This document shows, one piece after another, positions 6,931-63,800 of a DNA stretch of 64,000 bases. This DNA is from Bradyrhizobium sp. AZCC 1721 (GTDB lineage Bacteria; Pseudomonadota; Alphaproteobacteria; Rhizobiales; Xanthobacteraceae). Position 1 is the first letter of the stretch, and each line of letters starts with the position of its first letter. The stretch lies in assembly GCF_036924715.1 (NCBI RefSeq), contig NZ_JAZHSB010000001.1:1727001-1791000 (forward strand), read 5' to 3'. The translations under genes were made by a program, and so were the position numbers. The notes under the pieces were generated by a model. That model was not told the origin of the DNA. It saw nothing but the letters and a program-made list of their open reading frames with translations, and did not search any database.

Positions 6931-7668
6931 ATGACGCTTGTTCGCTACGAGAGCACGGGCCACGTCGCCACCATCACGATGGATCGTAGATCCTCGCACA
7001 ACGCGCTCAACAACGCCTTGTGCGACGAACTGCGGCAGGCCTGGCAGCGTTTTCACGACAGCGACGATCGCGTGGCGGTGCTCGCCTCGTCCGAGGACGC
7101 GTATTTCTCGGTCGGCGCCGACGTGAAGGATCTCCCCGTCAACATGTGGCACGCGGTGCCCGGCTTGGGCGTTGAGCTGGACAAGCCGGTCATTGCCGCG
7201 ACCTCGGGATGGGTCGTCGGCGGCGCCTTCGTGCTGGTGCAGATGGCCGACATGTGCGTGGCCTCGGAGACGACGCGCTTCATCTACCCCGAGGGCAAGA
7301 TCGGCACCACCGCTGGCGGCGTCTCCTCGGTGATGGCGCGCATGCCGCACAAGATCGCCATGGAATTCCTCCTGGTCGGTGAGGAAATGTCGGCGGAGCG
7401 GGCCTATCAGATTGGCTTCGTCAACAAGGTCGCGCCGAAGGGACAGCATGTCGCACTCGCCCAGGAGATGGCCGCAAAAATCGCCGCCAACGCGCCGCTG
7501 GTGGTTCGAGCCCTGAAGAAGCTCGCCCGCGATGCGATACCGAAGGGGCCCCTGGAGACGGTCGCCGAGGTGCGCCGGCTGCTCGACGTCGTGCGCGACA
7601 GCGACGACCTCAAGGAAGGCGTCAAGGCGTTCGCGGAAAAGCGCAAGCCTGACTTCAAGGGCAGGTAG
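6931..7668 (+). CDS. Enoyl-CoA hydratase/isomerase family protein
   Basis: A 245-residue crotonase-fold protein. The CoA and oxyanion-hole segments are at SSEDAYFSVGADVKDL (near 50-65) and ATSGWVVGGAFVLVQMADM (near 90-108); IYPEGKIGTTAGGVSS corresponds to the catalytic loop. Family members hydrate, isomerise or cleave acyl-CoA substrates. The usual GGG of the second oxyanion motif is GWVVGGAF here, so an exact reaction cannot be assigned. It follows the cupin gene by 44 bases and may share its transcript. Confidence 0.85.
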   Translation: MTLVRYESTGHVATITMDRRSSHNALNNALCDELRQAWQRFHDSDDRVAVLASSEDAYFSVGADVKDLPVNMWHAVPGLGVELDKPVIAATSGWVVGGAFVLVQMADMCVASETTRFIYPEGKIGTTAGGVSSVMARMPHKIAMEFLLVGEEMSAERAYQIGFVNKVAPKGQHVALAQEMAAKIAANAPLVVRALKKLARDAIPKGPLETVAEVRRLLDVVRDSDDLKEGVKAFAEKRKPDFKGR

Positions 7669-7794
7669 CGGCTATCCGCCGGCAGGTTCCAGTGACCGTG
7701 CGCCAACTCGCCGCCAGAAAAATAATTTGAAACGGGATGTCGGACTTGTCTCCGTCCGTTCGTCCTAGGTCCGAACCCGCGAAAGGAGCCCATC

Positions 7795-8226
7795 ATGGCC
7801 AAAATGATCTTCGTCAATCTGCCTGTCAGCGATCTCGCCCGCTCGACCGCCTTCTACCAGGCGATCGGCGGCGAAAAGAATCCGCAATTTTGCGATGATA
7901 CGGCGTCCTGCATGGTGTTTTCCGAGACCATCTACGTCATGCTGCTGACGCACGACAAATACCGCCAGTTCACCCCAAAGAAGATCGCCGACGCCAAGAC
8001 CACCAGCCAGGTTCTGATCTGCCTTTCCGCCGACAACCGTGAGGCGGTGGACGATATGGTCAGCAAGGCGCAAGGCGCAGGCGGCGGCGCCGACCCGGGC
8101 CCGAAACAGGATTACGGCTCCATGTATGGCCGCAGCTTCGAAGATCCCGACGGCCACCATTGGGAAGTGATGTGGATGGATGTCGCGGCCGCAACCGCTG
8201 CGCAATCCGCCACGGCCGCCGCCTGA
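7795..8226 (+). CDS. VOC-superfamily (glyoxalase-like) protein
   Basis: A 143-residue protein with one vicinal-oxygen-chelate module: FVNLPVSDLARSTAFYQAIG at the N-terminus and GRSFEDPDGHHWEVMWMD near the end, where the late His/Glu usually serve as metal ligands. Proteins of this size are often annotated as lactoylglutathione lyase-like, but real substrates vary widely. An AAGGAG ribosome site precedes the ATG. It is followed directly by a paired inverted repeat, which probably marks the end of its transcript. Confidence 0.85.
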   Translation: MAKMIFVNLPVSDLARSTAFYQAIGGEKNPQFCDDTASCMVFSETIYVMLLTHDKYRQFTPKKIADAKTTSQVLICLSADNREAVDDMVSKAQGAGGGADPGPKQDYGSMYGRSFEDPDGHHWEVMWMDVAAATAAQSATAAA

Positions 8227-8235
8227 TATGAACGC

Positions 8236-8325
8236 AGGGTGGGCAAAGCGATAGCGTGCCCACCATTACGTTCGCGATCCACCGAGAGATGGTGGGCACA
8301 GCGCTATGGCGCCTTTGCCCACCCT
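8236..8325. repeat. Paired inverted repeat, GGGTGGGCAAAG family, copy 1
   Basis: The arms AGGGTGGGCAAAGCG...GTGCCCACC and its reverse GGTGGGCAC...CTTTGCCCACCCT face each other across about 25 bases. The same element is at 55938-56028, and a single arm is at 45966-46001. It is intergenic and noncoding. Confidence 0.8.
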
Positions 8326-8647
8326 ATTTGCGCGTACGCTGGAGCCATCAACGCAGCAACCAGGCCAACTGCGGATAGCGAACAAAAGCAGTTACTGAAA
8401 TTCATTTGAAGCCGATCAATCTATCCCGACATCGCACCGGGTTGCACGCGTTTCGATGTGGCAGAATTATCACTCGCGCGGCTTACTCGCCCGCAGGTTA
8501 GTGATTGCGAAAACGCGTTCGATGCGATGGACATAAAAATCCGGAGCCATCACACTGAATTTCGCCGCAATGTCAGTTCGCTCCAGATTCCGCCCCAGAT
8601 CGTCCGTGAAGCCAGCGACCCGATCATTTTCTGTTCTGTCCGATTCG
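8326..8647. other. Intergenic stretch without a recognised gene
   Basis: About 320 bases between the repeat and the PMT glycosyltransferase. Short open frames exist on both strands (for example 8470-8718 minus), but none has a ribosome site or familiar sequence. It presumably holds the promoter of the next gene; no convincing boxes were seen. Confidence 0.4.
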
Positions 8648-34661: not shown

Positions 34662-35045
34662 ATGCACATCCGACGCATCAATGCCGAAGCAGTAACCGTG
34701 CCGACGACTGGCTACAGCCAGGCGCTAGAGGTCAGCGGTCACACCCGTCTGCTTTTTGTAAGTGGCCAGATTCCGTTCGGCATCGACGGCACCGTCCCTG
34801 AGGGCTTTGAAGCGCAGTGCAGGCTCGCCTGGCGAAACGTCGAGGCTCAGCTCAAGGCAGCCGGCATGACCCTCGACAATCTGGTCATGCACCGGACCTA
34901 CCTTGCCGACCGGCGCTACGCCCTCGTCAATCGCTCCGTGCGAAACGAGGTACTTGGTGGACGGGAAACAGCGCTGACGGTGGTTATCGCTGGTATCTTC
35001 GACGAGGCGTGGCTTCTCGAAGTCGAGGCCGTGGCCGCGGGCTGA
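34662..35045 (+). CDS. RidA-family protein lacking the catalytic arginine
   Basis: A 127-residue YjgF/RidA-fold protein: TTGYSQALEVSGHTRLLFVS, AWRNVEAQLKAAGMTLDNLV, then HRTYLADRRYALVNRSVRNE. Active RidA hydrolyses 2-imino acids using an Arg in a late P-A-R-T/S motif. The equivalent here is ETALTVV, with Leu in the Arg position by my alignment, so deaminase activity is doubtful. It diverges from the shortened LysR gene by about 115 bases, suggesting a regulator-target pair. Rid proteins of other subgroups are found in catabolic clusters. Confidence 0.85.
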   Translation: MHIRRINAEAVTVPTTGYSQALEVSGHTRLLFVSGQIPFGIDGTVPEGFEAQCRLAWRNVEAQLKAAGMTLDNLVMHRTYLADRRYALVNRSVRNEVLGGRETALTVVIAGIFDEAWLLEVEAVAAG

Positions 35046-35211
35046 TACCGAAACCCAATGCGCCGCGGCCTGTGCGGCCAAACCTGAACTTACCCTCAAG
35101 TAGGAAGCCCGGTTCCCCGCTTTCGACTTGCTTTCGTTTTTCTTTGTGATTAACTCCCATCCGAAAGCAAAATCGCCGAAGCGAAGAGGCGATCGCCGGG
35201 GAAGCGTTTCG

Positions 35212-36756
35212 TTGGATCGGATATTCGACCTCGCCATCATCGGAGGCGGCATCAATGGCTGCGGCATCGCGCGCGATGCGGCGGGCCGAGGTAATTCCGT
35301 TTTCCTGTGTGAAATGAATGACTTGGCGAGTGGAACGTCGTCCTGGTCGACCAAGCTGGTGCATGGCGGGCTGCGCTATCTCGAATATTACGAGTTCCGC
35401 CTGGTCCGCGAGGCGCTGATCGAGCGCGAAATCCTTTGGCAGATCGCGCCTCACATTATCAGACCTTTGCGTTTCGTTTTGCCGCACCACGCTGGCTTGC
35501 GGCCGGCCTGGCTGCTCAGGTTAGGGTTGTTCCTGTACGACCACATCGGCGGCCGTCATCTCCTGCCGCCGACGCGCTCGGTCGATCTCCTCCATGACGA
35601 GGTGGGCAAACCCTTGATCGCCAACCGCTACAGAAAAGGCTTCGAATATTCCGATTGCTTCGTCGATGACGCGCGCCTTGTCGTGCTCACCGCACGCGAT
35701 GCGGCCGATCGCGGCGCCGAAATTCACACCCGCTCGCGCGCGGTCGAGATACGGCAGGTGGATGGCATCTGGCACGTGACCGTCGAGAAAGCCATCAGCG
35801 GCGAGCGCTCGACCATCCAGGCGCGCGCGCTGGTCAATGCCGGCGGCCCATGGGTCGAGCAGGTGCTGTCGTCGGGCTCAGGCGTCAACGCGCGGGCAAA
35901 GGTGCGGCTGGTGCAGGGCTCCCACATCGTGGTGCGCAAGCTCTATGAGCACGACCGCGCCTACATCTTCCAGAATGCCGACGGCCGCATCATCTTCGTC
36001 ATCCCCTACCAGGACGACTTTACGCTGATCGGCACCACCGATCGCGACTACGACGGCGACCCGGCCAAGGTGAAAGCCAGCCCTGAGGAGATTCAATATC
36101 TCTGCGCCTCCGCCAGCGAGTATCTGAAGAAGCCGGTGCTGCCCGCGGATGTGGTCTGGACTTATTCTGGCGTCCGCCCGCTTTATGATGACGGCGCCAG
36201 CGAGGCCAGGGCCGCGACCCGCGATTACGTGTTCGAGCTCGATACGCCCGGCGGTGCGCCGCTGTTGTCGATCTATGGCGGCAAGATCACGACCTATCGG
36301 CGGCTCGCCGAGGAAGCACTGGAACGGCTTTCGCCATATTTGAGCAGCGACAAAGCGAAAGAGGGCTGGACAGGCAAGGCGCCACTGCCTGGCGGCAACA
36401 TGGATGTTTCGGCGGTCGCTGCGCTGACGGCGGAACTGACGCGGAAGTATCCGTTCCTCACCTCGGCGCATGCCAACCGGCTCGCGCATGCCTATGGCAC
36501 GCGCGCGACAAAATTGCTCGGCCATGCGAAATCATTGGCTGATCTAGGTCAGGCGTTTGGCGCTACCTTGACCGAAAGCGAGGTCCGGTACCTGATTTCG
36601 ACCGAGTGGGCTTGCAGCGCCGAAGACGTGGCGTGGCGAAGGTCTAAACTCGGCTTGCGACTGTCGGTCGATGAAATCGCCGTGCTTGACGAATGGATCA
36701 AGGCCAACAGCGCTTCCGGTGAACGTACCTTGCGCGAAGCGGGAGGGCGGACATGA
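35212..36756 (+). CDS. glpD: Glycerol-3-phosphate dehydrogenase, FAD-dependent
   Basis: Membrane-associated flavoenzyme oxidising glycerol-3-phosphate to dihydroxyacetone phosphate and passing electrons to quinone. FAD motif LAIIGGGINGCGIARDAAGR begins at residue 7; GTSSWSTKLVHGGLRYLE and the late IYGGKITTYRRLAEEAL are family hallmarks. A TTG at 35212 (GGGGAAG upstream) gives 514 residues and places the FAD motif correctly; an in-frame start at 35128 would add a hydrophobic piece not found in GlpD. The stop overlaps glpS as ATGA. First enzyme gene of the glycerol operon. Confidence 0.95.
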   Translation: MDRIFDLAIIGGGINGCGIARDAAGRGNSVFLCEMNDLASGTSSWSTKLVHGGLRYLEYYEFRLVREALIEREILWQIAPHIIRPLRFVLPHHAGLRPAWLLRLGLFLYDHIGGRHLLPPTRSVDLLHDEVGKPLIANRYRKGFEYSDCFVDDARLVVLTARDAADRGAEIHTRSRAVEIRQVDGIWHVTVEKAISGERSTIQARALVNAGGPWVEQVLSSGSGVNARAKVRLVQGSHIVVRKLYEHDRAYIFQNADGRIIFVIPYQDDFTLIGTTDRDYDGDPAKVKASPEEIQYLCASASEYLKKPVLPADVVWTYSGVRPLYDDGASEARAATRDYVFELDTPGGAPLLSIYGGKITTYRRLAEEALERLSPYLSSDKAKEGWTGKAPLPGGNMDVSAVAALTAELTRKYPFLTSAHANRLAHAYGTRATKLLGHAKSLADLGQAFGATLTESEVRYLISTEWACSAEDVAWRRSKLGLRLSVDEIAVLDEWIKANSASGERTLREAGGRT

Positions 36757-54340: not shown

Positions 54341-54500
54341 CTCTTCCTCGGCACTGTTGATCGACACCAGAGCTGACGTTCCCTCGCCGCGCCTTGCAAC
54401 CATCCTTTGTCGAATAGGAAAGGATGGTTGTCTCATTTGTCGAGGGCGGAACCGGTAACGCACTGCAGCGTTGGTTCTATACAGATGTGTGGAGGGTCCG

Positions 54501-54878
54501 ATGGCAAGCGATGTCATGGCCAAGCCGCATCAGTTGATCGCGAGCGACCGCGTCGAGGGGACCGCGGTGCGCCGGCCGAACGGGGACATGATCGGCCACA
54601 TCGAACGGCTGATGATCGACAAGGTCACCGGTAAAGTATCGTATGCAATCCTGAGTTTCGGCGGGTTTCTGGGCCTCGGAGCCAATCTGCTGCCGCTGCC
54701 CTGGGGACGGCTTCGCTACAACACGAAGTTCGAAGCCTACGAACTCGACATCGACGATGAAGAGTTGAGGCGCGCGCCGTCATTCCGTGCGGACAAGGAT
54801 TTCGACTGGGGCGATCGCGCAAAGGAAGCCGAGCTGCATCGCTATTACCGTATGCCGCCTTACTGGGGCGGCTTCTGA
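54501..54878 (+). CDS. PRC-barrel domain protein, cytoplasmic (125 aa)
   Basis: A PRC-barrel fold protein: VEGTAVRRPNGDMIGHIERL, MIDKVTGKVSYAILSFGGFL and LPLPWGRLRYNTKFEAYELD are the barrel strands. The C-terminal 40 residues (FRADKDFDWGDRAKEAELHR then YYRMPPYWGGF) are typical of rhizobial versions. These domains bind proteins or RNA in photosynthetic reaction centres and RimM; here the partner is unknown. GGAGGG before the ATG fixes the start. It is followed by a second, exported PRC-barrel gene, suggesting an envelope or stress role. Confidence 0.88.
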   Translation: MASDVMAKPHQLIASDRVEGTAVRRPNGDMIGHIERLMIDKVTGKVSYAILSFGGFLGLGANLLPLPWGRLRYNTKFEAYELDIDDEELRRAPSFRADKDFDWGDRAKEAELHRYYRMPPYWGGF

Positions 54879-54974
54879 TGCAGTCGGATCGGCGTGTTTC
54901 ATGCGAAAACGCGTGGAACACTTGTTGAAGTGCCGGGTTTTCCTCGAAGCGTTTCTGAACTGAGGAGAACGGAT

Positions 54975-55514
54975 ATGTTAACGAAAACTGCCGTTGCCGG
55001 CCTCGCGGCGTCCGCGTTGCTGGCGAGTGTAGCGTTTGCGCAGCAAAGTCCTTCGGCAACGACTGACAGCGCCAAGACCGCCGCACCTGCGGCTGCAACC
55101 GATACCTCGTCGTTCAAGGGTACCTGGCGGGCTTCGAAGCTGGTCGGCCTGAACGTGTACAACGATAGCAACGAAAGCCTCGGCTCGATCAATGATCTCC
55201 TGACCGACAAGAGCGGCGATATCAAAGCAGCCGTGATCGGTGTCGGCGGCTTCCTCGGCGTCGGCGAGCACCTGGTTGCGGTGCCCATCGACAAGGTGAA
55301 GTTCGTTGATGAGCCGGTTGCCTACACCGGCACCGCGGGTGCGCCCGCTACAGGTGGCGCACGGACAGGCGCAGGGGGAGGCACTGGCACGACGGGTGCC
55401 GCGACGGCGCCTGCCGCGCCGAAGAAGAATCCGTGGTATCCGGATCACGCTGTGTTCAGCGCGACGAAGGATCAGCTAAAGGCGATGCCGGAGTTCAAGT
55501 ACTCGACCGAATGA
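54975..55514 (+). CDS. PRC-barrel domain protein, exported (179 aa)
   Basis: Signal peptide MLTKTAVAGLAASALLASVA then FAQ (cleavage near residue 23), an Ala/Thr linker, and one PRC-barrel (WRASKLVGLNVYNDSNESLG; LLTDKSGDIKAAVIGVGGFL; VPIDKVKF). After the barrel a glycine-rich low-complexity linker (ARTGAGGGTGTTGAATA) leads to a conserved tail NPWYPDHAVFSATKDQLKAM. GAGGAGA supports the start. It lies 96 bases after the cytoplasmic PRC gene and is closed by a hairpin downstream. Confidence 0.85.
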   Translation: MLTKTAVAGLAASALLASVAFAQQSPSATTDSAKTAAPAAATDTSSFKGTWRASKLVGLNVYNDSNESLGSINDLLTDKSGDIKAAVIGVGGFLGVGEHLVAVPIDKVKFVDEPVAYTGTAGAPATGGARTGAGGGTGTTGAATAPAAPKKNPWYPDHAVFSATKDQLKAMPEFKYSTE

Positions 55515-57774: not shown

Positions 57775-58449
57775 TCAACGGATGGTCCGGCCGAGATCGG
57801 CGCGGCGATCCGTCATCGGCAGCACGATCACCTTGGTTCCGACGCTGACCCGGGAATAGAGATCAATGACGTCTTCGTTGGTGAGGCGGAGGCAGCCTGA
57901 AGAAACGCGGGTGCCGATCGTCTCCGGCGCGTTGGTGCCGTGGATGCGATAGATGGTGCCGCCGAGATACATCGCGCGGGCGCCGAGCGGATTACCCGGG
58001 CCGCCGGTCATGTGGCGCGGCAAATAGGGTTGGCGGGCGATCATTTGCGGGGGCGGGGTCCAGGCCGGCCATTCGGCCTTGCGGGTGATGGTCTGGGTGC
58101 CCGACCAGGTGAAGCCGTCGCGGCCGATGCCGATGCCGTAGCGCATCGCCTGGCCGTTGCCGAGCACGAGGTAGAGATAGGTGTTCGGAGTATCGATGAT
58201 GATCGTGCCCGGCGCCTCGCGGGTGTAGTAGTTCACGACCTGGCGGCGCAGGCGGGCCGGCAGCTCGAAGCGCTCTTCTTCCTCAGGCGCAGCGGCAACC
58301 GGCGGCGGGGCCGCTTCGATCTGGGGCAGGAAGAACGGAAACAGCGGCAGCGGAGCCGCAGTGGCGGGCGTGGAAAATGCGGTGGCGCCAATCGCCAGCG
58401 CGCCAAAGGCGGCGGCCGCGAAGCGGCTCAGTATCAATGAATTGGACAT
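57775..58449 (-). CDS. L,D-transpeptidase (YkuD domain), intact
   Basis: A 224-residue exported enzyme that makes 3-3 crosslinks or attaches proteins to peptidoglycan. Signal peptide: ALAIGATAFSTPATA (to about residue 31). YkuD domain from about 78: GTIIIDTPNTYLYLVLGNGQ, then RIHGTNAPETIGTRVSSGCL containing the HxxN...SxGC catalytic histidine and cysteine, then RLTNEDVIDLYSRV. It is the only intact YkuD gene in the window, the other (19282-20275) being frameshifted. Confidence 0.92.
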   Translation of the reverse strand: MSNSLILSRFAAAAFGALAIGATAFSTPATAAPLPLFPFFLPQIEAAPPPVAAAPEEEERFELPARLRRQVVNYYTREAPGTIIIDTPNTYLYLVLGNGQAMRYGIGIGRDGFTWSGTQTITRKAEWPAWTPPPQMIARQPYLPRHMTGGPGNPLGARAMYLGGTIYRIHGTNAPETIGTRVSSGCLRLTNEDVIDLYSRVSVGTKVIVLPMTDRRADLGRTIR

Positions 58450-59887: not shown

Positions 59888-60103
59888 CTAGCGCCTTGAT
59901 GGTGTGGAACGGATTGTTAGGGTCGCTTGGGGTCTCGGTCGTGGCAAAGGAGGTGATACAGGCCCCGCGAAGGCAACGGGCTTGGCCACGGGAGGCTGTG
60001 GCTGCACGACTGCCGCGTCGTTCACGGGACTGCTGTGGCGGCCTACAATGTAAGCCCCTAGCGCCGTGACAACCAGTAGAACGAGTAGCGTTTTTGCCCG
60101 CAT
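59888..60103 (-). CDS. Small membrane-anchored proline-rich protein (71 aa)
   Basis: MRAKTLLVLLVVTALGAYIV forms a single membrane helix or signal, followed by a Pro/Val-rich tail (QPQPPVAKPVAFAGPVSPPL then PRPRPQATLTIR). The start at 60103 is preferred; an upstream ATG at 60139 would overlap the preceding gene and add 12 residues. Function unknown. Confidence 0.5.
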   Translation of the reverse strand: MRAKTLLVLLVVTALGAYIVGRHSSPVNDAAVVQPQPPVAKPVAFAGPVSPPLPRPRPQATLTIRSTPSRR

Positions 60104-60119
60104 ACTCGCGCCACTACCG

Positions 60120-60296
60120 TTAGCCGGTTTTTCGAGCATTCATGGCCCGCTCAACCTCGTCGGCTAGTTGATCCAGATGCCGCGCAAGCCGGTCGAACAT
60201 CTCGCGCTTCGCTTTGTCGATAGCCAAGTCCCTGACAAGCGCGCATTCGGCCGTGTCTTTGCGCAGCTTCTCCAAATGGGTTTGATAATCCTTCAT
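60120..60296 (-). CDS. Small charged helical protein (58 aa)
   Basis: MKDYQTHLEKLRKDTAECAL, VRDLAIDKAKREMFDRLARH, LDQLADEVERAMNARKTG: a fully helical, charged sequence with heptad-like spacing, clearly coding. I recall closely similar small proteins in many Bradyrhizobium genomes, without assigned function. It may dimerise as a coiled coil. It precedes the proline-rich membrane protein by 17 bases on the same strand, so the two may be co-transcribed. Confidence 0.7.
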   Translation of the reverse strand: MKDYQTHLEKLRKDTAECALVRDLAIDKAKREMFDRLARHLDQLADEVERAMNARKTG

Positions 60297-60463: not shown

Positions 60464-61864
60464 TCAAGCCTGGCCAGCGCGCATTCGCGGTATGTCGGCT
60501 TGGCCGGTGGCAAGGACCGCACGGCGGTCAGCGACCGCGTGGTGGAATTGTTCGAGCGCGAGCCCAATCACCGAGAGGTCGCCGTCCTCGACTGCGCCGT
60601 CGTCATAGCAATCGAGCGCGTGACGCAATATGCCGTCGGCTGTGTTCTGCATCTCCGCCAGCTCTTCCGGCGTTTCCGCCTTGCGTACCCTAGAAATCAG
60701 GTCGAGCAGTTCGTCGCGATGGCCTACGTACACTTCGCGCTCGTCCCTGTTCCAGTAGTGCTTGAACCAGGCGCCGGCCGAGCCCAAGCCCGACAGGATC
60801 AGGATCGCGAACCAGATGTAGTCGGTGTATTTTTCGAGGAACGTTCGCTCGTTGCCGTCGATATAGGCGGCTGCGCCAGCATGCGCCGGTAGTGCGGCGT
60901 CCTTTTCGGTATCCGGCTTCTCGATCTGCGAGGCGGTAGGCAATTCACGCGCGAGCTGCTGGCGGTTGGTGAAGAGCTGGCGGGCGAAGGCGGCGACCGC
61001 CGTATCCGACAATGACTTCGGCGCGATGATCAGATGGTTGACGGCAACGGTGTCGACCTTGTCTTCCGGCCGCTGCGGCGAAGAGCCGAAGATGCTGGCG
61101 GGAATTTCCTCGGATTCGTAGATCGGGTTTTTCTTGGCGATCGCGTCGGAAACCTCGATCGGCAGGAATTTCGGCTCGCCGCGGGCAGCAGCCGTTGCAG
61201 CGATCGCGTCCACGGTGATCTTGCTCTTGAGCGGGCCTACCGCCATGAAGGCGTCGACCGACTGATCTTTCGCCATTTCGCCGAGCTGATTGGTGGCGAA
61301 CTGGCTGATCGTGACCCTATCGGGATTGATGCCGGACTCCTTTAGAATACTGCGCAACAGCGCGACATTGGCCTGCGTCCGCCCGATCACGCCGACGCGG
61401 TGGCCGGCCAGTTCATCGAGACTCTTGATCTTGGGCGTGGGCTGCTTCTTCGAACCCTTGGCGGGAAGGCCGGAGGGCGCCCACAGCACGACGACATTCT
61501 TGCGCAGGATGGCAACCGACTCGGCATTCGTCGGCAGGTTCAGGTCGCCGCGGGCGACGGCGAGATCGGCCTTGCCGTCCGTGAACAGGGCGATGCTCTC
61601 CACCGCCCCTTCCGTCGTGATCGGCGTCAGCCGCACCGAGCTGCCCTCGCGCGCAAAGGTCTGCGCCATCAACTGGATCAGCTTCTGGTCGTCGCTGCCG
61701 GCCGGGCCGACCGCAATCCGCAGCGTCGTCGGCCGCAGCACGTAATACAACGTGCCCGCGGCGACGCCGAACGCGAGCATGCCGGCGGCAAGGATCAGAA
61801 GCGCATAGCTCTTTCGCTTCCGCCGGCGGCGGGATCGCGCAGAATTGTCGTTGTGGTCTGTCAT
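60464..61864 (-). CDS. Membrane-anchored TAXI-family TRAP-type binding protein
   Basis: A 466-residue protein. A basic N-terminus (RSRRRRKRK) precedes a membrane helix (ALLILAAGMLAFGVAAGTLY, near 21-40). A TAXI solute-binding domain follows (LRIAVGPAGSDDQKLIQLMA; DLAVARGDLNLP; LAGHRVGVIGRTQANVALLR). A second helix is near 350-370 (YIWFAILILSGLGSAGAWFK), and the last 95 residues are cytoplasmic and helical (REVYVGHRDELLDLISRVRK). TAXI proteins normally feed TRAP transporters; no permease gene is nearby. The layout suggests a sensor or scaffold rather than a free binding protein. Confidence 0.85.
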   Translation of the reverse strand: MTDHNDNSARSRRRRKRKSYALLILAAGMLAFGVAAGTLYYVLRPTTLRIAVGPAGSDDQKLIQLMAQTFAREGSSVRLTPITTEGAVESIALFTDGKADLAVARGDLNLPTNAESVAILRKNVVVLWAPSGLPAKGSKKQPTPKIKSLDELAGHRVGVIGRTQANVALLRSILKESGINPDRVTISQFATNQLGEMAKDQSVDAFMAVGPLKSKITVDAIAATAAARGEPKFLPIEVSDAIAKKNPIYESEEIPASIFGSSPQRPEDKVDTVAVNHLIIAPKSLSDTAVAAFARQLFTNRQQLARELPTASQIEKPDTEKDAALPAHAGAAAYIDGNERTFLEKYTDYIWFAILILSGLGSAGAWFKHYWNRDEREVYVGHRDELLDLISRVRKAETPEELAEMQNTADGILRHALDCYDDGAVEDGDLSVIGLALEQFHHAVADRRAVLATGQADIPRMRAGQA

Positions 61865-61994: not shown

Positions 61995-63050
61995 ATGAAG
62001 ATATTGATTGCGACCGATGCGTGGCATCCGCAGGTGAACGGTGTCGTCCGCACGCTGACGTCGCTGGCGCGCAGCGCCGCTGCGCTCGATGCCGATATCA
62101 GCTTCCTCACCCCAGACGGGTTTCCTTCCCTCGGCGTGCCGACCTATCCCGGCTTACGCGTCGCGCTGCCGAACCGGCGCGAGATCGCGCGACGGATCGA
62201 AGAGGCGGCGCCCGACGCGATCCATATCGCAACCGAGGGGCCGATCGGCTGGATGGTGCGCGCCTATTGCCGGCGCCGCAAGCTTTCGTTCACCACGTCC
62301 TATACGACGCGCTTTCCCGAATATATCGCCGTCCGCACCGGGCTGCCGGCCGCCGTCGGCTATGCGGTGCTGCGGCAGTTTCATGCCGCGTCTTCCACGG
62401 TCATGGTCGCCACCGACTCGCTGCGGCAGGAACTTACTGGGCGGGGCTTTCGGAAACTTGGCTTCTGGACGCGCGGCGTCGACACCGAATTGTTCAACCC
62501 GCATAATCCTGCGACGCTCGATCTGCCGCGGCCGATCTTCATGACGATGGGCCGCGTCGCGGTGGAGAAGAATCTCGATGCGTTTCTGTCGCTCGACCTG
62601 CCGGGATCGAAAGTGGTTGTCGGCGACGGACCGCAGAAGGCGCAGCTCGCGCAAAAATACCCTGACGCAATTTTCCTCGGCGAGAAGAAGGGCGCGGAGT
62701 TGACCGCGCATCTGGCCGCCGCCGACGTCTTCGTATTTCCGAGCCTTACCGACACGTTCGGCGTCGTGCAGCTTGAGGCATTGGCCTGCGGCACCCCGGT
62801 CGCGGCATTCCCGGTCACCGGGCCAAAGGACGTCATTGCCGATCATCCGATCGGCGCGCTCGACACCGATCTGCGCAGCGCGTGCTTGCGCGCGCTGCCG
62901 ATGTCGCGCGAGGCCTGCCGGAATTTTGCACTGGCGCGCTCCTGGGAAAACAGCGCGCGGCAGTTCCTCGGCAATCTGACCGCGCTGCAGCCGAGTCGCG
63001 TGTTGCGACCGGTGCGCCGGGTGCCTGCCGCGAGCGCCGTGCAGGGCTGA
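61995..63050 (+). CDS. GT4-family glycosyltransferase (alpha-mannosyltransferase-like)
   Basis: A 351-residue GT-B fold enzyme. The acceptor domain starts ILIATDAWHPQVNGVVRTL with the typical GGV-like loop. The donor domain has FMTMGRVAVEKNLDAFLSLD, VVVGDGPQKAQLAQKYPDAI and the ExxG-type nucleotide-sugar motif in FVFPSLTDTFGVVQLEALAC. It resembles enzymes adding mannose or glucose to diacylglycerol or phosphatidylinositol in bacteria. It lies 60 bases before the phospholipid methyltransferase gene, hinting at a role in membrane lipid glycosylation. Confidence 0.88.
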   Translation: MKILIATDAWHPQVNGVVRTLTSLARSAAALDADISFLTPDGFPSLGVPTYPGLRVALPNRREIARRIEEAAPDAIHIATEGPIGWMVRAYCRRRKLSFTTSYTTRFPEYIAVRTGLPAAVGYAVLRQFHAASSTVMVATDSLRQELTGRGFRKLGFWTRGVDTELFNPHNPATLDLPRPIFMTMGRVAVEKNLDAFLSLDLPGSKVVVGDGPQKAQLAQKYPDAIFLGEKKGAELTAHLAAADVFVFPSLTDTFGVVQLEALACGTPVAAFPVTGPKDVIADHPIGALDTDLRSACLRALPMSREACRNFALARSWENSARQFLGNLTALQPSRVLRPVRRVPAASAVQG

Positions 63051-63110: not shown

Positions 63111-63800
63111 ATGGCAGACATCATCAAGCTTGACGGTACCAGATCCCTGGATTTCGACCGCGAAACGGTCGAGCAGGCCTACGATCGCTGGGCGCCGGTT
63201 TACGACCTCGTGTTCGGGGGCGTGTTCAGCAAGGGCCGCAAGGCGGCGATCCAGGCGACCAACAAGATCGGCGGCCGCGTGCTCGAGGTCGGCGTCGGCA
63301 CCGGCATTTCGCTGCCGCTATACGCGCCGCATCTGCGCATCTTCGGCACCGACATTTCGGAAGCGATGCTGCAGAAGGCGAAGAAGCGCGTCGATGAACT
63401 CGGCCTGAAGAACGTCGAGGGCCTTGCCGTCATGGACGCCGAGAATCTCGAATTCCCCGACGATTGCTTCGACGTGGTGATGGCGCAGTATGTGGTCACT
63501 GCCGTGCCGAACCCCGAAAAAGCACTCGACGAATTCGCCCGCGTGCTGCGGCCGGGCGGCGAACTCATCATCCTCACCCGCGTCAGCGCCGATGCCGGCA
63601 TGCGCCGCTTCATCGAGCAGCGGCTGCAGCCGGTGGTGCGTCCGCTCGGCTTCCGCACCGCCGAATTCGCCTGGTCGCGCTATGCGCAATGGCTGGCGGG
63701 CGCGCGCGGCATGGAGCTGGCGGAGCGCCGCCTGGTGCCGCCGCTCGGTCACTTCTCGCTGGTGCGCTTTCGGAAAATCGACGTCGCCGCGGCTGCCTGA
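63111..63800 (+). CDS. pmtA: Phosphatidylethanolamine N-methyltransferase (PmtA-like)
   Basis: A 229-residue class I SAM-dependent methyltransferase. Motif I is GGRVLEVGVGTGISLPLYAP (near 54-73), followed by IFGTDISEAML (acidic SAM ligand) and FDVVMAQYVVTAVPNPEKAL. The N-terminal AYDRWAPVYDLVFGGVFSKG and the FRTAEFAWSRYAQWLAG tail resemble PmtA enzymes of rhizobia and Rhodobacter, which methylate phosphatidylethanolamine toward phosphatidylcholine. Bradyrhizobium has several Pmt paralogues, so the exact methylation step is uncertain. Confidence 0.78.
   Translation: MADIIKLDGTRSLDFDRETVEQAYDRWAPVYDLVFGGVFSKGRKAAIQATNKIGGRVLEVGVGTGISLPLYAPHLRIFGTDISEAMLQKAKKRVDELGLKNVEGLAVMDAENLEFPDDCFDVVMAQYVVTAVPNPEKALDEFARVLRPGGELIILTRVSADAGMRRFIEQRLQPVVRPLGFRTAEFAWSRYAQWLAGARGMELAERRLVPPLGHFSLVRFRKIDVAAAA

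Follow-up and report, generated by a model that had tools for sequence, protein, structure and literature searches.

A Bradyrhizobium TAXI Protein with Two Predicted Membrane Helices and a Conserved Cytoplasmic Tail

A gene for a TAXI protein with two predicted membrane helices, which we refer to as bitopic, lies on the minus strand of the DNA analyzed here (hereafter the window: the whole stretch of 64,000 nucleotides, representing bases 1727001-1791000 of a 7.15 Mb, one-contig genome of Bradyrhizobium). An earlier interpretation, made from the letters alone (the sequence-only reading), had placed the open reading frame at 60464-61864 on the minus strand, and both the coordinates and the strand proved to be exact. 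TAXI domains normally work outside the cell membrane, passing nutrients to a transporter. The gene, its parts as predicted and its neighbors are as follows (KD, Kyte-Doolittle hydropathy).

60464..61864, minus strand: bitopic TAXI gene, 466 amino acids plus stop
61811..61864, minus strand: basic N-terminus, predicted to be cytoplasmic, residues 1-18; poorly conserved
61736..61810, minus strand: first predicted membrane helix, residues 19-43; KD 2.17; no Cys; read as an uncleaved anchor
60854..61735, minus strand: TAXI (venus-flytrap) domain, predicted to be periplasmic, residues 44-337; altered ligand residues D59 and R105
60761..60826, minus strand: second predicted membrane helix, residues 347-368; KD 1.58; contains G361-S362-x-x-A365
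60467..60760, minus strand: tail, predicted to be cytoplasmic, residues 369-466; modelled helices 342-393 (including helix 2), 399-421 and 427-452
61995..63050, plus strand: GT4 glycosyltransferase, divergent from the TAXI gene
63111..63800, plus strand: methyltransferase (Methyltransf_11), neighbor only
57775..58449, minus strand: L,D-transpeptidase (YkuD), neighbor only

The assignment of a TAXI domain by the sequence-only reading holds. In a Pfam scan PF16868 matched residues 72-334 of the protein with 65.6 bits against a cut-off of 27 (E 7.5e-18), and a profile built from 36 members of the family retrieved the solved TAXI proteins 1us4 (5.6e-23) and 8u79 (7.4e-23), the TAXI homology spanning family-profile positions 48-325 in the alignment with solved TAXI proteins. 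The score of TIGR02122 against the window protein (80.9 bits, E 7.5e-23) is below the curated cut-off of 84.35; the same model matched all 36 rows of family alignment A1 at E 0.001 or better, the best at 1.8e-34 (alignments A1 and A2 contain 36 and 32 rows, respectively, picked for diversity). No recognizable output or effector domain was found anywhere in the window protein in the Pfam scan at E 1.

For the study of topology, 87 members of the family were aligned. These derive from 88 proteins extracted from the loci, from which L118, a conventional TAXI protein, was excluded and in which L007 was replaced by P0001, to which it is identical; L163/L144, whose frame is broken, were kept out of the alignment. 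The two highest KD peaks of the window protein fall at residues 21-39 (2.17) and 349-367 (1.58), and both hydrophobic segments are kept in all 87 members, in agreement with the original view that the TAXI domain is bracketed by two helices. The first helix has a KD peak of 1.84 or more in 87/87 members, with the basic side N-terminal in 73/87. There is no lipobox at this helix in the window protein and no cysteine near it; its long hydrophobic run (residues 19-43), the missing cysteine and the start of the TAXI fold some four residues later argue for a predicted membrane anchor. The second helix peaks at 1.0 or more in every one of the 87 members and at 1.2 or more in 83 (median 1.62), and the tail peaks at a median of 0.57. 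Since the TAXI body, too, has a median KD peak of 1.26 and 4 of the 87 second helices lie below 1.2, hydrophobicity alone is no proof for the weakest second helices. The content of lysine plus arginine is higher on the C-terminal than on the N-terminal side of helix 2 in 81/87 members, with six ties and no reversals. Hydrophobicity, charge bias and the modelled helix described below all speak against a second segment that fails to span the membrane; the segment appears to behave as a conserved membrane helix, chance being ruled out by the 87-member alignment. By prediction, none of the members is a free or lipid-anchored protein confined to the periplasm, helix 2 and the tail being present in 87/87.

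The tail that follows helix 2 is conserved both in length and in sequence. Residues 369-452 contain no insertion in any of the 87 members and are ungapped in 81, one residue being missing in the other six; L402 is kept in 87/87 and R447 in 84/87. The sequence-only reading, which had proposed collecting homologs to examine the residues of the tail, had given it 95 residues; its length counted from residue 369 is 98. Among 17 close orthologs (136 pairs), the tail has a dN/dS of 0.16, helix 2 of 0.11 and the TAXI domain of 0.12, as against 0.41 at the N-terminal and 0.55 at the C-terminal end; purifying selection acts on both the tail and helix 2. AlphaFold, supplied with 17 sequences for the full-length protein and 15 for the tail, modelled residues 342-393 as one 52-residue helix that comprises helix 2 and the first helix of the tail, followed by helices at 399-421 and 427-452. 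The pLDDT of the tail was 62-83 in 10-residue blocks of the full-length model and averaged 73.3 when the tail was modelled alone. The TAXI domain was modelled poorly (pLDDT of 20-45 in 10-residue blocks) because only 17 close sequences entered; the model is unusable there and does not show how the domain would be coupled to helix 2.

A profile search of solved structures returned no credible relative of the tail, the best match being 7rdr (E 0.044), and the best match of the tail model in Foldseek had an E of 0.12. In a fold comparison the best score was that of the CorA cytosolic domain (Z 11.8, rmsd 6.0 over 112 residues), which is under the level of about 13 given for helical bundles; the PDB fold matches are generic. 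As a rough figure, a profile of the tail matched at least 27 of 398 genomes at the level of the phylum, one of these being a chance match (L165), and, equally roughly, at least 7 of 385 at the level of the class, ten candidates having been scored in most of the genomes. L165 had been considered as a relative of the tail: the protein, a histidine kinase as named by eye, matched at E 3.9e-5, but there is no TAXI match there, and we judge the similarity to be a chance one between a membrane helix and a coiled coil.

The family extends beyond this genome. One or more strong full-length matches were obtained in each of the 36 Bradyrhizobium genomes searched, the present one among them, and 45/60 genomes of the same search match at E 0.001, a threshold at which the weaker matches include ordinary TAXI proteins. 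All 17 loci with close relatives of the gene in named records are from Bradyrhizobium. The genome itself encodes three bitopic copies (the window gene and those at 34827-36182 and 6607813-6609087) as well as several soluble TAXI proteins whose signal sequences look ordinary by eye. In a tree of 62 rows, thinned from 101, the window gene's clade joins that of the 34827 copy in a single starred group (100/100). The genus contributes two or more additional clades; four other families of the order are represented as well, and G219 is the one row from outside the order. Copies are also found on plasmids of Bradyrhizobium japonicum, one of which is typed as conjugative. Public plasmid records call such genes TRAP transporter subunits, a label that would be misleading for the bitopic copies. 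Three members scanned with PADLOC gave no match that would indicate a role in defense. Broken copies were observed as well: one on a Tardiphaga plasmid (L175 4992-6706) lies under three annotated genes, and another, in a relative, consists of three matched pieces (G023:C61:28806-30144).

TAXI proteins of TRAP systems are secreted or lipid-anchored and are paired with a fused permease, according to PMC12344293 and PMC11574862. The bitopic family differs from them in having two predicted membrane helices, a predicted cytoplasmic tail and no permease beside the gene. The window, which covers 2.1 kb on one side of the TAXI gene, contains no DctM match and hence, as first noted from the sequence, no TRAP permease; there are 22 DctM matches elsewhere in the genome. 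A tblastn search with the three TAXI-type permeases of this genome found none at any of the 83 family loci for which 4 kb or more of flanking sequence was available on each side (shortest flank 4.5 kb; 82 distinct loci, as L046 and L078 share one gene), and the same search matched both conventional TAXI control loci, L118 and L119. A TAXI-type TRAP permease beside the gene, the kind of arrangement named by the sequence-only reading as contrary to its proposal, thus did not turn up (0/83). Calling the gene an orphan was correct, but the term is less telling than it might seem: at least two soluble TAXI proteins of the same genome (L002 and L004) are also without a permease within 1.5 kb on each side.

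Could the protein nevertheless be a membrane-anchored binding protein for a TRAP permease encoded elsewhere, helix 2 and the tail being a mere anchor? We consider this highly improbable. The genome does offer candidates, precisely three TAXI-type permeases (TRAP_fused) scoring above the cut-off besides the DctM matches, and membrane tethering of TAXI proteins is already in print; but each of the three permeases adjoins a soluble TAXI protein and so is already provided with a partner, and a plain anchor needs no selected tail of constant length. Moreover, TRAP_fused was absent at 1e-50 from 12 of 54 family-bearing genomes. Ten of the 12 do carry other, DctP-type TRAP permeases, and for the remaining two, G219 and G243, there was not a single DctM match. 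Full-length bitopic members were confirmed in both of these genomes, which are rated 100% complete and are in 120 and 6 contigs, respectively; a permease gene could have been overlooked, but hardly in both genomes. The two genomes, with the protein and without a TRAP permease match, provide a natural test bed. In G375, another of the 12, the reading frame of the family copy is broken.

The predicted ligand-binding site likewise departs from that of glutamate-binding TAXI proteins. In VcGluP the key residues for glutamate are Tyr45 and Gln93, and Gln78 of TtGluBP is the counterpart of Gln93, as described in PMC11574862. A family-profile alignment to TtGluBP places the corresponding positions at residues 59 and 105 of the window protein, if, as we read the alignment, Tyr45 of VcGluP belongs at the tyrosine of the G-V-Y-F-P stretch of TtGluBP. 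Among the 87 members, position 59 is D in 53, A in 21, E in 11, V in one and Q in one, position 105 is R in 86 and P in one, and D107 is invariant (87/87). The glutamate-type pair of Tyr and Gln was therefore not found, with D, A or E at position 59 in 85/87 members and R at position 105 in 86/87. The family has a two-lobed domain homologous to that of TtGluBP (1us4) and VcGluP and shares the C-terminal H-x-G-A motif, but where these use Tyr and Gln for glutamate, it has D/A/E and Arg. Given the conservation of R105 and D107, the predicted pocket would appear to have been rebuilt and not simply lost. Arg105 in this pocket suggests an acidic ligand; in DctP-type proteins, according to PMC11574862, a pocket arginine is used for the acidic ligand.

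These findings bear on two further questions. First, given the lack of an adjacent permease, the presence of partners for the genome's own permeases, the family genomes in which no such permease was found and the replacement of the glutamate residues, shuttling for a TRAP system is very unlikely. The earlier statement that the protein is not a shuttle is thus well supported, both by the lack of a neighboring TAXI-type permease and by the family genomes in which none was found. Second, the protein might be a structural scaffold of the cell envelope that binds no ligand, its altered pocket being dead and its tail organizing membrane complexes. The replacement of the key ligand residues and the genes of lipid or cell-wall type beside the window copy (for the glycosyltransferase, the methyltransferase, the L,D-transpeptidase and a DUF4403 protein, the last two located downstream of the TAXI gene) are compatible with such a role. 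We nonetheless regard it as distinctly improbable: the pocket is conserved in its new form, which would be needless if it were dead, and other clades have other neighbors.

The glycosyltransferase gene, in particular, is core to the genus (35/36 genomes), but in no more than 14 of these 35 does it adjoin the TAXI gene. With other copies of the family located elsewhere, we rejected a functional link to the glycosyltransferase, the methyltransferase and the L,D-transpeptidase of the window. Indeed, among the family loci examined there is no constant partner gene, and neighbors differ between clades. Comparing gene neighbors across loci, a check put forward by the sequence-only reading, was thus carried through, but it yielded no constant partner and a gene order that depends on the clade. 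A link to typA or argG at loci of family f26 and others was set aside as inherited gene order near housekeeping genes and not partnership (typA, argG and mutL were named by eye from the starts of their proteins). So was an idea involving polyphosphate, which had arisen from PhoD, CYTH-CHAD and PPK2-like genes next to certain copies (the PPK2-like one identified by eye), as the loci were too few.

Near single copies lies a variety of transporter and channel genes: TauE/SafE, SulP, Nramp, two MFS transporters, a chromate transporter, a bestrophin-like protein and a cNMP-binding ion channel. Proteins with at least four strong hydrophobic segments make up 13 of the 64 nearest gene families as compared with 19 of the 265 further ones (Fisher p 0.004), in a test that was post hoc and relied on a crude ORF caller that admits spurious ORFs; second-nearest downstream genes are also rich in multi-helix proteins (7/39). 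We treat the enrichment as a lead only. It would fit a tethered accessory of a non-TRAP membrane protein, in which the TAXI domain presents or senses a solute for a paired channel or secondary transporter and the tail holds the complex together. A printed precedent is the coupling of a TAXI protein to GltS: BP0403 of Bordetella pertussis, a predicted lipoprotein whose additional N-terminal domains lie outside the membrane, is coupled to gltS (PMC12344293). The likeness is that in both cases the TAXI domain is accompanied by additional helical sequence and has no TRAP permease in its vicinity; the difference is that the present genome has no GltS match. Of 13 genomes searched for GltS (PF03616), G375 alone gave a match, and the other 12, the present one among them, gave none. 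An accessory role is rather unlikely in our estimation, although the least so of the three alternatives considered: apart from the limits of the enrichment, the transporters are diverse and unrelated in type, some are encoded on the opposite strand, and most family loci, including that of the window, have no adjacent transporter.

On three Methylobacterium plasmids, a PAS-domain gene is found directly upstream of the bitopic TAXI gene and on the same strand, at the following positions.

L172, 5166-5774: PAS-domain gene, on which the profile was run
L173, 3167-3775: PAS-domain gene
L174, 3166-3774: PAS-domain gene

The two genes are separated by 88, 120 and 88 bases, respectively. These are three of five Methylobacterium plasmid matches, the other two, H4 (no annotation there) and H7, being outside the count. 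The PAS protein is a candidate for a cytoplasmic partner, the pairing representing one orthologous locus.

How do these features compare with systems already described? Membrane-anchored TAXI proteins were reportedly the subject of work by Roden et al. in 2023. According to PMC11574862, which cites Roden et al. 2023, a considerable fraction of TAXI proteins are lipoproteins. Tethering as such is a shared feature; what sets the present family apart is the second helix and the conserved cytoplasmic tail. No TAXI protein with both was recognized among the open-licence papers listed. The architecture appears to be new for a known TAXI domain, anchored TAXI proteins being already in print. Histidine kinases and chemoreceptors are bitopic, with a periplasmic sensor between two helices. 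The TAXI protein resembles them in its N-in helix, its putative sensor and a second helix that continues into cytoplasmic helices, and it differs from them in that no recognizable output domain was found in the Pfam scan.

Taken together, the sequence evidence points to a bitopic protein that carries a conserved cytoplasmic module, is independent of a TAXI-type TRAP permease and of GltS, and probably senses or holds something instead of carrying it. From the topology, the continuous helix 2 and the rebuilt pocket, we infer that it could be a transmembrane sensor or adaptor, a reading that we prefer to the others and hold to be about evenly balanced between right and wrong. The sequence-only reading had spoken of a signal transducer or a scaffold, which fits the anatomy but goes beyond it, with neither an output domain nor a constant partner gene at hand. 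In the sensor model, the TAXI domain would lie in the periplasm between the N-in helix and a second helix running unbroken into a cytoplasmic module of three helices. The flytrap would close on a small ligand, probably an acidic one given Arg105; its C-terminal end, with the conserved H-x-G-A motif located a little ahead of helix 2, would move and thereby shift that helix; and the helical tail would then hold its partner, in the cytoplasm or in the membrane, in a different way. The protein would thus be a sensor made from a TRAP-type binding protein that, having no output domain of its own, would act via a partner encoded elsewhere. More tentatively, and with somewhat less confidence than in the sensor model itself, we suggest that TAXI proteins with a second helix and a three-helix cytoplasmic output module may constitute a class of TRAP-independent transmembrane receptors, whose paralogous clades in Bradyrhizobium and its relatives would each adapt a solute signal to a different partner in the membrane or the cytoplasm. 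If the sensor reading is true, a binding protein for transport has been turned into a receptor, and soil and root-nodule bacteria would have a new type of receptor.

Finally, we note several features of the window and of other loci. Downstream of the TAXI gene, on the minus strand, are a small ORF for 58 amino acids (60120-60296), whose product is charged and helical by eye, and an overlapping ORF for 83 amino acids (59888-60139) with one hydrophobic segment, also by eye, and with relatives in five other loci. Two adjacent genes on the plus strand (54471-54878 and 54894-55514) appear by eye to be PRC-barrel-like, and each is present in 14 loci including the window. In Bradyrhizobium, L092 (3190-9870), L087 and L098 have a same-strand series of DUF3302-like, HlyD-like, bitopic TAXI, DUF3300 and DUF2950 genes; the DUF3302-like and HlyD-like genes of L092 are below the Pfam cut-offs, and L092 and L098 contain an extra gene. 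At the typA/phoD locus (L043), a soluble TAXI-like protein (7371-8534; PF16868, 1.3e-14) is encoded about 1.2 kb upstream of a bitopic paralog, so that two TAXI genes share one conserved neighborhood. Lastly, an ORF for 818 amino acids elsewhere in the genome (L010, 4543267-4547037) combines in one chain a TAXI-like domain and what appears by eye to be a binding protein like those of branched-chain ABC-type systems.
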